NCBI RefSeq assembly: GCF_004959935.1
Contig: NZ_SMYN01000006.1
Span: 205,434-238,307, forward strand
From: Falsirhodobacter xinxiangensis
GTDB lineage: Bacteria > Pseudomonadota > Alphaproteobacteria > Rhodobacterales > Rhodobacteraceae
Reading direction: 5' to 3'
Length of the DNA stretch: 32,874 nt
Both the position numbers and the translations under genes were made by a program. Positions within the stretch are counted from its first letter, which is position 1; each line of letters begins with the position of its first letter. Below the pieces are notes generated by a model. The model did no database searches, had not been told where the DNA came from, and saw nothing but the letters and a program-made list of their open reading frames with translations. Positions 7,518 through 32,843 of this stretch are shown piece after piece.

Positions 7518-7583
7518 TCACGAATCCGAACGGCCGGACCTGCCTCATTCGGACCATGGACGTCTTGCCTGCGCAAAGGGCGA

Positions 7584-7602
7584 GGCGGGCGGATCGCCCG
7601 CC
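7584..7602 (-). terminator. Hairpin downstream of the VPLPA-CTERM gene
   Basis: GGCGGGCG (7584-7591) and CGCCCGCC (7595-7602) form a perfect 8-bp stem with a 3-nt loop, 8 nt past the stop of the gene at 7611. On the minus strand it is followed by a mixed pyrimidine stretch (TCGCCCTTTG), not a clean T-run. Confidence 0.5.
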
Positions 7603-7610
7603 TCCATCCG

Positions 7611-8576
7611 TCAGGCAGCTTTGCGGCGACGCGACAGACCTGCGACAGCAATGAGGCCCGTGCCCAGCAGGACGATCCCGGCCGGCAGCGGCACCGGCGC
7701 GGGCGAGGCGACGGCAAACCCGTCCAACGCACCGAAATCCGAAGGCGCGTCACTGATAAGATAGGCGTTCACCCTGCCCAAGGCATCGGCGGTCAGGTCG
7801 ATCTGGTAAAGGCCGGTGGAGAATCCGGTCGACAGCAGCGCCAGCGCCTGATTGTCGCCCTCGGCCAGCGACAGGATGTCGAAGCCACCTGCGCTGGTGA
7901 AGTCGAACGCCTTGCCGTCGACGAACAGGCTGCCGATCGTGGTCAGCGTGCCGGCATTGTTGGCAAGGATCGCCAGCGAGTCCCACTGGCTATCCAGCAC
8001 GAACTGCACGTTCGCCGTCGGATTGGCGACCGCGTTGGTATAGGCATTGGCGAAAACAGACGGGTCGTTGCCCTCGTTCACGTCACCGGCCGCATAGGCC
8101 AGATCCATGATCCCGGCGGCTTCACCTGCAATATTGGGTGGGGTGTTCTTGGGGAAGAAAACGCGGTTCTCGTCCGCGGTGGTGACGATCCGTGCAGCAT
8201 CCAGAACGTTGTTGAAATCAAAGCCGAGCGAGTCGGTCGAGGTCCGCTCGGCAGCGCCCGCAGTAACGACCGCAGTTGCGATGCCCGAGGCGACGTCGAC
8301 CGTATAGACCGTATCATTCACGTCGCTGTATCCATACATGGATCTGTTCGATGGCCGGAACGCCAGAGAGCTTAGCGAAACGCGCGCGCCCGAGGCGTCG
8401 GTGATTGCCTGTCCGGTGGCTATGCCGGGCGTGTTCAGGTCTTGCATGGTCACCAGAGTGGTGCCGTTATTGCCCAGCGCATACCCCGTTGCGCCCGAAG
8501 GGACCGTCGCCGCCGAAGCCGCGCTTGCAACAAATACGGACACTGCACTGCCCAAAAGAGCGGTGTATAGCTTCAT
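7611..8576 (-). CDS. Exported protein with DUF4394-like domain and VPLPA-CTERM sorting signal
   Basis: A 321-aa protein with a Sec signal peptide (MKLYTALLGSAVSVFVASAASA, about residues 1-22). The body has repeated short motifs of the kind LVTMQDLNTPG, YGYSDVNDTVYTVDVASG and GLYQIDLTADALG, like the beta-propeller-like DUF4394 proteins that pair 'time/field' statements with values. It ends with APVPLPAGIVLLGTGLIAVAG and the basic tail RRRKAA, a clear VPLPA-CTERM signal. Such proteins are processed by an exosortase (XrtD-type in Rhodobacterales) and go to the surface or an extracellular matrix; no exosortase gene is in this window. A GGAGA box precedes the ATG by 7 nt. Confidence 0.85.
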   Translation of the reverse strand: MKLYTALLGSAVSVFVASAASAATVPSGATGYALGNNGTTLVTMQDLNTPGIATGQAITDASGARVSLSSLAFRPSNRSMYGYSDVNDTVYTVDVASGIATAVVTAGAAERTSTDSLGFDFNNVLDAARIVTTADENRVFFPKNTPPNIAGEAAGIMDLAYAAGDVNEGNDPSVFANAYTNAVANPTANVQFVLDSQWDSLAILANNAGTLTTIGSLFVDGKAFDFTSAGGFDILSLAEGDNQALALLSTGFSTGLYQIDLTADALGRVNAYLISDAPSDFGALDGFAVASPAPVPLPAGIVLLGTGLIAVAGLSRRRKAA

Positions 8577-28154: not shown

Positions 28155-30341
28155 ATGACCAGGACACCGACACCAAAATCCGACCGGCGCCACCGCTACG
28201 ACGCGCATTGGAGCCATCTCGCTCTCCGCGCCGCTCTGGAGGCGACGCTGCGAGGCAACACCATGAGCAAGGTCGCGGGCAACCTGCTGCGGCAGAATGC
28301 CGAGAAGCTGGCTGCCGCGCTCGATCCGGCTTACACCGCCGAGCATGCCGCGGCCGACCTTGTGTCAGGCGAGGTCGCCGAAGCGATGCGCAAGGCCTTC
28401 GAGGTCTATGGCAATCGTGCGATCCATCCCTCCGCCTTCGGCGCGGCCCAGCATCCGAGGATGTCGGCGGAGCAGGTCTATGTGCTGCTGCGCCTGTGCC
28501 GTGCCATCCGCACGGAGGACCGGCTCGCCGCGATGTCGGCGCCGAGCGCGCTGACCATCGTCGTTGGCGGCGACACGGAGGAGCTGTCGTTCAAATGGGC
28601 GATCAGCGGCGCGTTGCTGCCGGACTGGATGTGCACCGACCGCTACGTCAACGAGCCCTTCCAGATCATCACTGCCGAGATGTGCGAGGTGAACCACAAG
28701 AAGCACCCGCGGCATTCGATCGCCTCGGTCCTGAGCAGCCGCAATCCGGTGCTGTTGACCATGGAGAAGGGGGAGACGATCCCGGACCCGGTCGCGGTGG
28801 CCGAGACGGTTCGCGTGACGCTGGAACCGGCGGACCGGACGCTGATCCTGTGGATGCTGGCGCTGCTGCATCCCGACACGCCGCGGCCGGAGCTGGACCG
28901 GCTGCGCCGGCGGCTGCCGCCGGACGAGGCTCTGGGCCGGATCGGGCAGTTCGAGCTGCTCGCCACCTTCCGCGCCGCCTCCGCGCGGGACACGGTGAAG
29001 GCGCTGCGCACACTCGCGCAGAAGCCGCCGGAGGTCTCGTCCGGCCTGCGGCTTGCGGAACTTGCCGGATTCGGCGAGGCGAAGACGGTCGCGCTGCAGA
29101 TCGTCGAGGATCTGCAGGCGTGGAAGCGGGGCGAGTTGCCTTGGGCTGACGTCACCCGCGGCCTGCTGCTCTACGGCCCGCCCGGCACCGGCAAGACGGA
29201 ACTCGCGCGCGCCATGGCACGCGAACCGAGCATTTCGCTCGAATGCGGCAACTATACGACCTGGCAGCAATGCGGCCACCTCGGCGATGCGCTGAAGGCG
29301 ATGGACAAGACGTTCCGCGAGGCAAAGGCCAACGCGCCCTGCGTGGTCTGGATCGACGAGATCGACAGCTTCGGCTCGCGCGATAACCGGAACACGCAGC
29401 ATCAGAGCTATGACATCAAGATGATTAACGGGCTGCTCGCGCATCTCGATGGCATCGCCGAGCGCGACGGGGTCGTGATCCTTGCCGCCTGCAACCATCC
29501 GCAACTGCTAGATCCGGCGATCAAGCGGGCGGGCAGGTTCGACCGATCGATCTATGTCGGCCTGCCGGAACGCGACGATCTGGCGATCATCCTGCGCCAG
29601 TATCTGGGCGATGATCTGCCGGAGGCGGACCTGCAGCGGATCTCGGTGCGTGCCAAAGGCAAGAGCGGTGCCGATTGCGCGGCGGCGGTGCGCAATGCCC
29701 GAGCTTCTGCGCGCGGGGCGAAGCGCGCGATCTGCGAGGAGGATCTGATCGCGGCCCTCGGGGGCACGGGCGACAGCCTGTCCCGCGCATCACTGGAGGC
29801 GACGGCGTATCACGAGGCGGGCCATGCCGTGGTTGCGGCGGCGCTGAAGGTCGGGGAGCCTTCATCGGTGCGGCTCGAAGACCGGGGCGGGCTCTTCAGC
29901 GTCACGAAAGCGCCGCAGGTGGAGACAACCGAGGACATGCACCGTTTGCGTGCGGTCGATCTCGCGGGCCGGGCGGCCGAACGTCTGATCTACGGCGCCC
30001 CGATGCCGAGTGCTGCCGGCACCAATGACAGCGACATCGCGCAGGCGACGCGGACTGCGCTGCGGGAGGAGTTGAGCCTGGGGCTCGGCTCGTCCGGCGC
30101 GATGTGGTTCGGCAGCAGGCACGAGCCCGAGACGCTGCTGCGGATGCCGGCGGAGATGCGGGCGCATGTCCGGCTGCTTCTGGACCGGTCCGAGGACCAT
30201 GCGCTGCGCATCCTCGAGGCCAACCGCCCCGCGCTGGATGCGCTGGCCACTGCGCTGATCGAACAGAGGATCGTCGCGGACGAGCAGTTGCGGGGCTTCC
30301 TGTCCACGGTCGTCGATGTTGGCGGGGAGGCGCGGCCATGA
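28155..30341 (+). CDS. FtsH-like AAA+ ATPase with M41 zinc-peptidase domain, without membrane anchor
   Basis: A 728-aa protein. An N-terminal region of about 320 residues has no membrane helix and no recognised domain; part of it (SRNPVLLTMEKGETIP with VRVTLEPADRTLIL) looks like a degenerate ATPase module. The AAA+ domain has Walker A GPPGTGKT (341-348), Walker B VVWIDEID (Asp401, Glu402) and the arginine-finger block LDPAIKRAGRFDRSIYVGLP. The M41-like part has the zinc motif HEAGH (His553, Glu554, His557) and LAGRAAERLIYG with TND (Asp625), the third ligand position in FtsH. It should be an ATP-driven protease. ATG at 28155 has a distant AGGA; ATG at 28263 is an alternative start. It overlaps the next gene by 4 nt. 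It is not the housekeeping FtsH, which has two N-terminal helices. Confidence 0.85.
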   Translation: MTRTPTPKSDRRHRYDAHWSHLALRAALEATLRGNTMSKVAGNLLRQNAEKLAAALDPAYTAEHAAADLVSGEVAEAMRKAFEVYGNRAIHPSAFGAAQHPRMSAEQVYVLLRLCRAIRTEDRLAAMSAPSALTIVVGGDTEELSFKWAISGALLPDWMCTDRYVNEPFQIITAEMCEVNHKKHPRHSIASVLSSRNPVLLTMEKGETIPDPVAVAETVRVTLEPADRTLILWMLALLHPDTPRPELDRLRRRLPPDEALGRIGQFELLATFRAASARDTVKALRTLAQKPPEVSSGLRLAELAGFGEAKTVALQIVEDLQAWKRGELPWADVTRGLLLYGPPGTGKTELARAMAREPSISLECGNYTTWQQCGHLGDALKAMDKTFREAKANAPCVVWIDEIDSFGSRDNRNTQHQSYDIKMINGLLAHLDGIAERDGVVILAACNHPQLLDPAIKRAGRFDRSIYVGLPERDDLAIILRQYLGDDLPEADLQRISVRAKGKSGADCAAAVRNARASARGAKRAICEEDLIAALGGTGDSLSRASLEATAYHEAGHAVVAAALKVGEPSSVRLEDRGGLFSVTKAPQVETTEDMHRLRAVDLAGRAAERLIYGAPMPSAAGTNDSDIAQATRTALREELSLGLGSSGAMWFGSRHEPETLLRMPAEMRAHVRLLLDRSEDHALRILEANRPALDALATALIEQRIVADEQLRGFLSTVVDVGGEARP

Positions 30342-30901
30342 TTATCGAGCAGTGGCCATACTTCCTGATCCTCGGCGTCTGCATTCTCATCTTCGCCTTG
30401 TTTGCGATTGTGGAGCTGCGGTTGTTCTGGCGTCAGCGCTCCGAGGCAAAACGCAAGGAACAGTTCGAGCGCGACCTTAGTCGCGCTCTGAGCCGCGAGG
30501 GGTTTTTGTTCGAACCCGGGGATTTCCATGTCACGAGGTCCGCGGGCCTGAAGATGGGCGGCATGCCCGAACAGATCTGGGTGGCCGTCAAACACCGCTA
30601 TGCCGCTCCTATTCCGTATCGGCGGGATGACATCGTCGAGAGGATCGAGCGCCGCGAGCAGAGCAGGCCTGGCCACTACTATGTTGCTGACGTGGAGGTG
30701 CGCGCCGACCTTATCGTGTTGGCTGAGCTTGCGCTCGGCGGCAGCAGGGCGGCGGTGGACTGGTTCGGCCGCCATCACGACGAGTTCGGCGGGTCACCTG
30801 CGTCGTTCTTGCAGAACGGCGGAGATGAAGCAAAAGTCGCGGGGCATTTGAAGAGCATGCTGTCATGCAGCGCTCCCACCGAGCGGGAGGCACGGCCATG
30901 A
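30338..30901 (+). CDS. Small membrane-anchored protein, partner of the FtsH-like protease (inferred)
   Basis: A 187-aa protein with one N-terminal membrane helix (about residues 7-29, YFLILGVCILIFALFAIVE), a basic helix RSEAKRKEQFERDLSRALSREG and a cytoplasmic domain containing GGMPEQIWVAVKHRYAAPIPY and RRDD (about 74-98), then GHYYVADVEVRADLIV. No family is recognised. The ATG overlaps the stop of the protease gene (ATGA) with GGGGAGG upstream. The next protein shares its basic helix and the GMPE...P-x-PY-x-R-x-D module. A role as membrane tether, adaptor or substrate of the anchorless protease is inferred from position only. Confidence 0.75.
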   Translation: MIIEQWPYFLILGVCILIFALFAIVELRLFWRQRSEAKRKEQFERDLSRALSREGFLFEPGDFHVTRSAGLKMGGMPEQIWVAVKHRYAAPIPYRRDDIVERIERREQSRPGHYYVADVEVRADLIVLAELALGGSRAAVDWFGRHHDEFGGSPASFLQNGGDEAKVAGHLKSMLSCSAPTEREARP

Positions 30902-31323
30902 ATGCGGCCTTTTTGCTAGTCGCCTTCCTGATCGCCAGTGTCTTCTTTGAATGGCTCGAAGGGGCTGCGCGCCCCGCAGCCATGGTGGGACATGAGCTCA
31001 CATGGATCGACTGGATGTTCGCGATCGCCATCGGCGCGATCGGAGGGCCGACGCTGGCGATCGTGATGGTGCGGTTGATCTATTGGCATCAGCGGCGCTC
31101 GGACGCTGCCCGGAAAGCCTATGCTGAACGGGTGAGGGACAAGGCGCTTCGCGACGTTGGCGTATCCCGGAGCATCGAACCGGTGCCTGCCGATCACCAA
31201 GCGACGATTGTGGTGGTGTCGACGTCAGGAGGGTGGACGTCAGGCATGCCTGAGACGGTCTATCTCGCCGCCGTCGGGCGGGAGGGCTCGCCTGTGCCTT
31301 ATGCGCGAAAAGATATGGAATAG
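30898..31323 (+). CDS. Second small membrane protein, paralogous module; possibly truncated
   Basis: A 141-aa protein with two helices (AAFLLVAFLIASVFFEW, residues 3-19; IDWMFAIAIGAIGGPTLAIVMVRLIY, 37-62), a basic segment (RRSDAARKAYAERVRDKALRDVG) and the module SGMPETVYLAAVGREGSPVPY with ARKD (115-139), which matches the upstream protein. It stops directly after the module, where the paralogue continues for about 90 residues. The +1 frame continues IWNSLATALREQLGLHV, which could be the lost tail, so a frameshift near 31318 is possible. GGGAGG precedes the overlapping ATGA start. Function unknown. Confidence 0.68.
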   Translation: MNAAFLLVAFLIASVFFEWLEGAARPAAMVGHELTWIDWMFAIAIGAIGGPTLAIVMVRLIYWHQRRSDAARKAYAERVRDKALRDVGVSRSIEPVPADHQATIVVVSTSGGWTSGMPETVYLAAVGREGSPVPYARKDME

Positions 31324-31461
31324 CCTCGCCACCGCATTGCGAGAGCAGCTTGGGCTGCACGTGTCTCTCATCAGACACGCGCGCGGCCTGAACGCGAGGG
31401 CAGCTGCCTGTTCCGTCGTGTGTCCATAAGTCGGACAGGGCATTCGCGGCATGTCTTAGTG

Positions 31462-31584
31462 ACGCGAAAGCCCCACACAGGACGTTCGGGAAGCGACTAC
31501 CATTTCAACCCGCAGCAACGCGAAAGCCCCAAAGCCGTCATTCGACAGAGCGTGCTGAAGGCTTCGTCACAACGCTTAAGCCCC
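31462..31584. repeat. Three direct repeats of ACGCGAAAGCCCCA at about 55-bp spacing
   Basis: Copies at 31462-31475 and 31518-31531 are identical (14 bp); a third at 31572-31585 has 2 mismatches (ACGCTTAAGCCCCA). After the first two, 5 variable bases are followed by G(A/T)C(G/A)TTCG, so the similarity extends over about 27 bp. Spacings are 56 and 54 bp. Too few and too short for CRISPR; they could be operator or iteron-like sites or a decayed interspersed repeat. Confidence 0.5.
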
Positions 31585-31669
31585 ATTGCGGCCGCTTGTC
31601 AGCGTCGCGCCTGGACACGGAACTAGCACACACATATGCGGTCATCTGAGCACAGTTTCGCAATTTTTT

Positions 31670-31757: not shown

Positions 31758-32843
31758 TTGAAACTGATTTCCTTTTCCGTAGAGAATTATCGTAGCATCA
31801 CCACAGCCCGCAAAATACAGCTTGAAAATTATTCATTACTTGTTGGTGCAAACAATGAAGGAAAGTCGAACATTCTACACGCTCTCGCGCTAGGCATGAA
31901 CGCGCTCTCAGCATGGGTATCTCAAGTTCGCAGAATGCCTGATGGAAGAATGGTTAGAGTAAGGCCTTCGCTGTTGGGACACCAACTGGGTTTTGATTGG
32001 GCTTCGGACTATCCAATCGACAAGCAAGGAAAAGCGAAGGATGATTCATGTGCTAGAATAACGCTTGAATTTGGCCTGGATGAAGATGAATTCTCTGAAT
32101 TTTCGCAGCGGATTAAGAGCAATTTAAATGGAACGCTGCCAATCCTGCTGTCGTTTGGTAAATCGCACTTCGATCTTTCTGTGCAGAAGCCTGGGAGAGG
32201 GCATGCTACTCTCAATCGAAAATCAACCAAAATCGCTTCATTCGTTTCGGATAGAATTGGATTCCACTATATACCGGCAATCAGAACTTCATCGTCTGCG
32301 GCTGAAGTTATTGGTCGGCTCGTAGAGAAGGAACTCAGGTCGATTGCCAGTGGCCTCATTGCACTAGACCATCTGGGGGGCGCAAGCTCATTGTCGCAGA
32401 AGGCATCATTTTACAAATCTTCTGCTTGTGACATACAGGCATTCATAGATAATGACGCTGCTGGAAAACTTGCGGTCGAAAAAGCTGTTTTAGCTAGGAC
32501 GCTGAAGATTGCTGACGTAAATCTATCATTCTATCCGGGAAAAGATGAGTCCGAGCTGGAAGATTTATACGACAAAAAAGTCTATCGAGATGGCTTCTTT
32601 TCCGAATTTGGTGTCGACGTTACAAAAAAGCCTATAGGGAAAAAATCTGGAAAATGGTCAGATCTTCTTTCAAAACTATTTTTAGAAAGCGGTAAAACAT
32701 GGACAAATTCCCAAAAAGATGCATGTAAGATTTGGCTCGCAGACTTCGCGGCTAATCATGCCGACACTATTATACTCGAAAAGACGAGTGGGGCACTAGA
32801 TGCATTTGTTGTAACAGTTGAAGACAAAATCGGGATGATGTGA
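31758..32843 (+). CDS. OLD/GajA-like ATPase-TOPRIM protein, apparently internally deleted
   Basis: A 361-aa protein. The N-terminus KLISFSVENYRSI and Walker A GANNEGKSN (30-38) are those of OLD-like SMC/RecF-type ATPases, and similarity in style continues to FHYIPAIRT (169-177). From about residue 200 the text changes to the second half of a TOPRIM nuclease domain: IALDHLGGASSL, FIDNDAAG (DxD at Asp231-Asp233) and GKDESELEDLYD (acidic motif, about 261-272). Signature motif, Walker B and the TOPRIM EG motif are not found; related ATPase-TOPRIM proteins are some 200 residues longer. An in-frame deletion joined near residue 188-200 is the simplest reading. The TTG start has AAAGG upstream. Strongly AT-rich next to its neighbours, a sign of transfer. 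Likely a phage-defence relic or compact variant. Confidence 0.68.
   Translation: MKLISFSVENYRSITTARKIQLENYSLLVGANNEGKSNILHALALGMNALSAWVSQVRRMPDGRMVRVRPSLLGHQLGFDWASDYPIDKQGKAKDDSCARITLEFGLDEDEFSEFSQRIKSNLNGTLPILLSFGKSHFDLSVQKPGRGHATLNRKSTKIASFVSDRIGFHYIPAIRTSSSAAEVIGRLVEKELRSIASGLIALDHLGGASSLSQKASFYKSSACDIQAFIDNDAAGKLAVEKAVLARTLKIADVNLSFYPGKDESELEDLYDKKVYRDGFFSEFGVDVTKKPIGKKSGKWSDLLSKLFLESGKTWTNSQKDACKIWLADFAANHADTIILEKTSGALDAFVVTVEDKIGMM

Follow-up and report, generated by a model that had tools for sequence, protein, structure and literature searches.

Three overlapping genes near the right end of a 32,874-nucleotide stretch of Falsirhodobacter xinxiangensis DNA (contig NZ_SMYN01000006.1, positions 205,434 to 238,307; hereafter the window, whose right end is the contig end) encode an FtsH-type AAA+/M41 zinc metalloprotease that has no membrane anchor (P0001), followed by two small paralogous membrane proteins (P0002 and P0003). 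Our tentative reading is that P0001 is a soluble AAA+ protease whose partner gene is exchangeable and that, here, the two membrane proteins may dock it at the inner membrane. An earlier note on this DNA had proposed a split FtsH, with a membrane tether or substrate adaptor made by separate co-translated genes. Overall, the results leave this idea possible for the genus: the genes form one overlapping cluster, the start of which recurs in both loci of Cereibacter flavus that encode a 59% identical protease. However, it is not a general principle, because 71 of the 75 protease loci compared have no such membrane-protein gene.

P0001 has the catalytic modules of FtsH but not its membrane anchor

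The P0001 gene (28155..30341; ATG at 28155, stop at 30341; forward strand, like all features of the cluster) encodes 728 amino acids, in which Pfam detected AAA (E=2.7e-30, residues 337-470) and Peptidase_M41 (E=3.1e-15, residues 543-713; 57 bits against a cut-off of 29.9). The FtsH-family alignment begins at residue 294-299, and the protein comprises an AAA+ ATPase module (residues 296-535; 29040..29759) and an M41 protease module (residues 540-728; 29772..30338). The motifs GPPGTGKT (residues 341-348; Walker A, 29175-29198), IDEID (400-404), RAGRFDR (458-464) and HEAGH (553-557; 29811-29825) are all present. To determine which residues are conserved, we aligned 59 of the 68 proteins read, all of at least 600 residues and including the outgroups L002 and L008-L012 (L105, which duplicates L063, was dropped, as were eight short or broken proteins). 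H553, E554, H557, D627, K347, D401, E402, R458 and R461 were invariant in 59/59 proteins. The 'TND' that the earlier note had counted among the catalytic motifs did not hold up, as its columns vary; the invariant acidic column is instead D627 in 'NDSDI' (30033-30035), which we take to be the third zinc ligand of FtsH.

As the earlier note had stated, P0001 has no N-terminal membrane helices: a hydropathy window found no membrane segment anywhere in the protein, compared with two, from residues 1 and 98, in the canonical FtsH of the same genome (L002). Among the 68 proteins, L002 alone has an initial hydrophobic segment and then a second one; L048, L076, L119 and L121 have a single hydrophobic window from residues 66-81, and further proteins have windows deeper inside. 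P0001 scored 190.7 bits against the NCBIfam FtsH model TIGR01241, under its 600-bit cut-off. The place of the membrane and periplasmic segment of FtsH is taken by a family-specific N-terminal region (residues 1-294; 28155..29036), which is about 295 residues long rather than the 320 first estimated and which, as proposed, is unrecognised: residues 1-305 had no Pfam match at E<=10, and a profile of the region had no significant match among PDB sequences (best E 0.16). A degenerate second AAA domain was considered for this region on account of a suggestive hydrophobic pattern, but profile comparison with the family's AAA domain gave a probability of 2.1% (P 0.022), and we make no such claim.

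Two small paralogous membrane proteins are coupled to the protease gene

The P0002 (30338..30901, 187 amino acids) and P0003 (30898..31323, 141 amino acids) genes follow as the earlier note had described, each start overlapping the preceding stop in an ATGA and each preceded, at a spacing of 7 nt, by a ribosome-binding site (GGGGAGG at 30324..30330 and GGGAGG at 30885..30890). A promoter and terminator scan returned 1 and 3 sites, respectively, compared with 0.6 and 3.1 expected. The description of the two products as short paralogues with N-terminal helices was also borne out: pairwise BLASTP gave E=8e-11 with 36% identity over 88 columns, and N-terminal hydrophobic segments number one in P0002 and two in P0003. 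P0002 further has a presumed cytosolic domain and a C-terminal region weakly similar to PF09722, and P0003, a shortened paralogue, has a short presumed cytosolic part. In both proteins, a basic segment directly follows the last helix. Under the positive-inside rule, a basic segment after a helix marks the cytosolic side, and the tails of P0002 and P0003 are therefore predicted to lie in the cytosol.

Neither protein matched a Pfam or NCBIfam family above cut-off or a PHROG at E<=0.01. A Foldseek search with a model of P0002 returned nothing at E<=0.001, and profile searches of PDB sequences gave no match at E<=10 for the P0002 tail and nothing convincing for the membrane-protein family (best E 0.99). 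A pattern-based search for P0002 in plasmids gave no match at E<=1e-3.

The protease and a P0002-like gene are linked and under selection in Cereibacter flavus

We compared seven genomes of the genus set, which includes Falsirhodobacter algicola and C. flavus. Relatives of P0001 at E<=1e-60 were found in 6/7 genomes, own genome counted, and relatives of P0002 (E<=0.001) and P0003 (E<=0.01) in 2/7, namely C. flavus and the window's genome. Of the three protease loci in C. flavus, two encode a protein 59% identical to P0001 and the third (L098) one that is 41% identical. In both of the 59% identical loci, a P0002-like gene overlaps the end of the protease gene by 4 nt and runs off the contig end. 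Thus, the ATGA overlap is kept in 3/3 cases (the window and both close C. flavus copies), even though the P0002 proteins are only about 37% identical. Two further C. flavus contig ends (L099 and L100) bear the distal part of a longer P0003-like gene with a P0002-type tail and cannot be placed beside a protease; these fragments excepted, all membrane-protein genes seen accompany a protease gene. At L098, positions 7573-8302, between the protease gene and a P0003-like gene, hold a helix-turn-helix gene and an apparent remnant of another gene, and the locus appears to be a mosaic.

Between the two close C. flavus copies, the ratio of nonsynonymous to synonymous substitution rates (dN/dS) was 0.13 for the protease gene (AAA 0.08, M41 0.07, N-terminal region 0.17) and 0.14 for the P0002-like gene (125 codons, part of the gene), and both genes are thus under purifying selection. 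The ratio was 0.32 for the tail fragments L099 and L100 and 0.36 for P0003 compared with its 66% identical relative; the P0002 pair from the window and C. flavus was saturated. The dN/dS values and the conserved overlap together ruled out that the small open reading frames are due to chance or are non-coding.

The tctC, tctB and tctA genes lie upstream of the P0001 gene on the opposite strand. Between the window and C. flavus, their products share 96-99% identity, compared with 59% for the adjoining protease and 37% for P0002. Because the synonymous distance of the protease gene (0.91) exceeds that of the tct genes (0.29-0.52), the results favour replacement at a common site over simply rapid evolution. 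Further, the DNA at positions 30998-31475, covering the greater part of P0003 plus some 150 bp after it, shares 79% identity with the C. flavus copy that lies behind the distant protease; the operon is therefore a mosaic. The stretch common to the two C. flavus copies starts about 40 bp inside the protease gene. No empty site was found, as the tct locus was matched at full length only in the window's genome and C. flavus, both of which carry the operon. Behind P0003, the window has three 27-nt direct repeats (31462-31598), which are 67-100% alike and 54-56 nt apart; a similar stretch also lies behind the P0003-like gene of L098. The OLD-like ATPase gene that the earlier note had placed beside the cluster was confirmed at 31758-32843 (361 residues; AAA_15, E=2e-10, first 45 residues only). 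At this gene, the G+C content falls to about 47%, which suggests that the region is separate foreign DNA.

P0001 belongs to a wider anchorless family in Alphaproteobacteria

At E<=1e-60, P0001 had matches in 32/394 family-level and 9/289 class-level genomes. Five of the nine class-level matches form a separate group of about 900 residues (L008-L012), a second anchorless AAA/M41 group from other alphaproteobacteria that falls outside the main family in the tree. Copy numbers are lower bounds, as the genome searches scored only the best few candidates per genome (2, 3 and 7). A profile of residues 95-305 matched 16/398 phylum-level genomes at E<=1e-5, all within the window's class, and 47 plasmid records had matches at E<=1e-40. 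The 40 plasmid records listed contain 29 annotated matches, labelled simply 'AAA family ATPase' in 28 cases and 'hypothetical protein' in one. The pattern-based search with P0001 found one locus in genome contigs and no relative in viral contigs. In the tree (SH-aLRT support, a quick method, with 16/55 inner branches open), P0001 grouped with the close C. flavus copies (99), then with L098 (91) and then with L101 (97), and L112 and the long-branched L061 lie further out (99). We found no description of this anchorless family among the titles and starts of abstracts listed in searches of the open-access literature. Overall, the family appears to be a poorly described, presumably soluble set of proteases on accessory or mobile DNA of Alphaproteobacteria.

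Nuclease, recombinase and transposase genes are the commonest neighbours of the protease

To describe the surroundings of the family, we scanned the context of 75 matched loci of 76 given (L179 had no match); the set is partly redundant, as several genomes give two loci and L080 and L081 carry the same 4,860 bp. The most frequent flanking genes encode a conserved protein of ~172 residues (31 loci), a GIY-YIG-type nuclease (29) and a large serine recombinase (20), followed by DUF6634 (11), TnsA-like proteins (11; seven are downstream and accompanied by TnsB, and the others, upstream, are unverified, two of them lacking a Pfam match), a PD-(D/E)XK nuclease (9), a metallophosphoesterase (9), TnsB (7), TnsC (6), a small overlapping protein (6, that of L103 being doubtful) and the membrane-protein family (4). 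The GIY-YIG label derives from record annotation, with one protein sub-threshold in Pfam and another with a PHROG endonuclease match; PDDEXK_5 was above cut-off for L120, and the Tn7-like labels derive from Bosea annotation and from TniB, TnsA and Mu-transposase matches. A GIY-YIG-type or PD-(D/E)XK-type nuclease gene lies upstream of the protease gene in 38/75 loci. Among the 72 loci with at least 2 kb of downstream sequence, a large serine recombinase gene (19) or TnsB gene (7) was found within 6 kb in 26, and neither was found in 46. The earlier note's label of a candidate undescribed system is fair for the wider anchorless family in this company.

The gene that directly follows the protease gene differs between loci. 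In two Rhizobium plasmids (L118 and L124), a metallophosphoesterase gene overlaps the protease gene by 4 nt; in L115, L173, L174, L175 and L181, the position is taken by a gene for a protein of 64-72 residues, and in the window and the two close C. flavus copies by a membrane-protein gene.

The order ~172-residue protein, nuclease (GIY-YIG-type or PD-(D/E)XK), protease and large serine recombinase was seen in 11/75 loci (L044, L045, L046, L049, L050, L053, L067, L069, L104, L113 and L121), frequently preceded by a small, divergent CopG-like gene, and may represent an undescribed kind of integrative element. In L101, L115, L177, L181, L183 and L184, the protease gene has Tn7-like tnsA, tnsB and tnsC downstream of it in the same orientation, and in L061, tnsA and tnsB lie downstream on the other strand; TnsB is hence encoded in the direction of the protease in 6/7 loci. 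The identical 4,860 bp of L080 and L081, from two genomes of one genus, were considered as an element boundary, but this was rejected because the stretch ends at an apparent IS21-type insertion and at masked sequence. In the F. algicola locus (L112:417-905 and onwards), a RES-domain gene is divergent from the protease gene, and DUF6634 and a seemingly cut-short metallophosphoesterase gene lie behind the protease gene.

Discussion

FtsH-type proteases are regarded as membrane-anchored, the anchor aiding hexamer formation. P0001 shares with FtsH (TIGR01241; Pfam AAA and Peptidase_M41) the order of modules and all catalytic residues but differs in having no membrane helices, another N-terminal region and an accessory location in a genome that also has a normal FtsH gene. 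Its best PHROG match is PHROG 30773, a virus-encoded FtsH-like family of unknown function (E=1.4e-48, residues 296-722), which does not cover the N-terminal region. Similarly, its best PADLOC match is IetA (E=7.6e-27, residues 332-532), the AAA ATPase of IetAS, which is likewise tied to proteolysis; there the protease, IetS, is a separate serine protease, whereas in P0001 it is M41 and fused. No peptidase gene adjoins the P0001 gene, its neighbours in the window being those of P0002, P0003, tctC and the OLD-like protein; in Methylorubrum, the protease relative has an S8 peptidase gene about 4 kb behind it.

According to a study of YME1L (PMC5095350), the membrane anchor of that protease drives hexamerization, and a hexameric coiled coil can replace it. 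By analogy, an anchorless relative would need another device for assembly or tethering, and the N-terminal region of the family, or the membrane partners, would have to do the anchor's job. We propose that P0001 subunits would form the usual AAA+ hexamer, which would pull substrates through its pore into the M41 chamber, and that the gene after the protease gene may encode an exchangeable partner, be it the metallophosphoesterase, the 64-72-residue protein or the membrane proteins. In this genus, P0002 and P0003 would be inner-membrane proteins with cytosolic tails; they could dock the hexamer at the membrane and choose or present its substrate. In this way, a membrane-bound FtsH-like machine would have been regained from separate genes, beside normal FtsH.

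Several observations weigh against this proposal and keep it tentative. The membrane-protein genes are known from only two species and lie beside 4/75 protease loci, all in these two; the protease therefore does not need them, and the co-occurrence on which the earlier note had staked its idea is largely contradicted. A P0002/P0003 profile, run against the 394 family-level genomes, likewise found only the window's own; C. flavus did not turn up in that sample. Only the window shows all three genes in order, because the C. flavus operons run into contig ends. At the C. flavus locus with the 41% identical protease (L098), the protease gene is followed by a small helix-turn-helix gene and, about 0.65 kb downstream, by a P0003-like gene (66% identical to P0003), with no P0002. 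At 0.39 (N-terminal region 0.54, AAA 0.20, M41 0.50), the dN/dS of the protease between the window and C. flavus indicates weaker constraint than between the C. flavus copies. Finally, AlphaFold2 models from two-row alignments were poor both for P0001 residues 1-305 (mean pLDDT 37.4) and for P0002 (mean pLDDT 49.8), in which the membrane helix alone was confident.

Rather than receptors, P0002 and P0003 could be substrates or inhibitors of the protease in a toxin-antitoxin-like or regulatory module, in which the protease, once triggered, clears away a membrane protein whose tail resembles an antitoxin. Degradation of antitoxins by AAA+ proteases is common, and P0002 residues 130-160 resemble PF09722, the toxin-binding domain of Xre/MbcA/ParS (E=0.027 for the whole protein and 0.0088 for a fragment). 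A profile of P0002-type tails compared with one of PF09722, built from ten family members of related genomes and one Bosea protein, gave a probability of 78% over 34 columns (68% over 40 with another column rule), and protease relatives have an annotated PF09722-family protein in Bosea (23.8 bits against the cut-off of 24.5) and the RES-domain gene in F. algicola as neighbours. All three P0002-type tails nevertheless score under the cut-off, the best being the P0002 fragment (16.5 bits) and the other two reaching E=0.15 (the only match of one) and E=0.14 (the second match of the other); RES matches occur in 2/7 genomes of the genus, and neither the window's genome nor C. flavus has a RES match or a PF09722 match at E<=0.01. 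P0003 has no such tail, and compared with RES-Xre, MbcTA and ParST, P0002 has a membrane helix instead of a helix-turn-helix. The similarity is thus best treated as a lead and not as membership, P0002 was not accepted as a true RES antitoxin, and we regard the substrate or inhibitor role as unlikely, if worth keeping in mind.

A role of the protease primarily in the service of mobile elements, in which it would remove or remodel a recombinase, transposase or repressor and the Falsirhodobacter version would be an offshoot without that context, draws on the neighbouring genes described above. ClpX and ClpXP act in this way for phage Mu, and ClpX/ClpXP and ImmA-type proteolysis act in mobile elements; the likeness lies in regulated proteolysis linked to recombinases or transposases, with the difference that here the AAA+ protease gene itself adjoins their genes. 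Consistent with such a role, the sister branch of the window's proteases (L101) has TnsA/B/C 0.5-3.2 kb downstream, and L080 and L081 share, at 100% identity and between different left flanks, the protease gene and most of a recombinase gene. Against it, the 46/72 loci with neither recombinase nor TnsB, the possibility that the protease gene hitch-hikes as cargo, the failure of the L080/L081 stretch to define an element and the lack of a recombinase or TnsB gene in the 2.5 kb between the P0001 gene and the contig end lead us to consider this role improbable. We are more doubtful still of an anti-phage or stress system with the protease as effector and the membrane proteins as sensors. Such a system could be suggested by the adjoining OLD-like gene of lower G+C, by CBASS genes, a TIR-domain gene and a RES gene near relatives, and by the far greater divergence of the protease and P0002 than of the flanking TctA/B/C, as in loci under antagonism or replacement. 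The sole PADLOC match of the two membrane proteins, of the P0002 helix to a '2TM effector' model, also points this way, but it was weak (E=0.0055) and is probably due to hydrophobicity alone. Against such a system, the PADLOC matches of P0001 at E<0.01 are confined to the AAA part, the neighbouring genes vary between loci, and plasmids and islands are rich in defence genes anyway. The docking, substrate, element-control and defence readings are not fully separate: once docked, the protease could act in any of the other three roles.

We retain the docked protease with an exchangeable partner gene as our tentative reading. More broadly, and as a speculation that we think unlikely to hold in full, mobile DNA of Alphaproteobacteria might carry its own soluble AAA+/M41 protease with an exchangeable partner to control a recombinase, a nuclease or a host factor, which in Falsirhodobacter would have been rebuilt as a membrane-bound protease through two co-translated membrane receptors. 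The family is hidden by its annotation as 'AAA family ATPase' only. If true, a natural anchorless family with frequent links to recombinases, Tn7-like transposases and nucleases would add a new meeting place of regulated proteolysis and mobile DNA, and the Falsirhodobacter operon would be a natural test of tethering by separate proteins.

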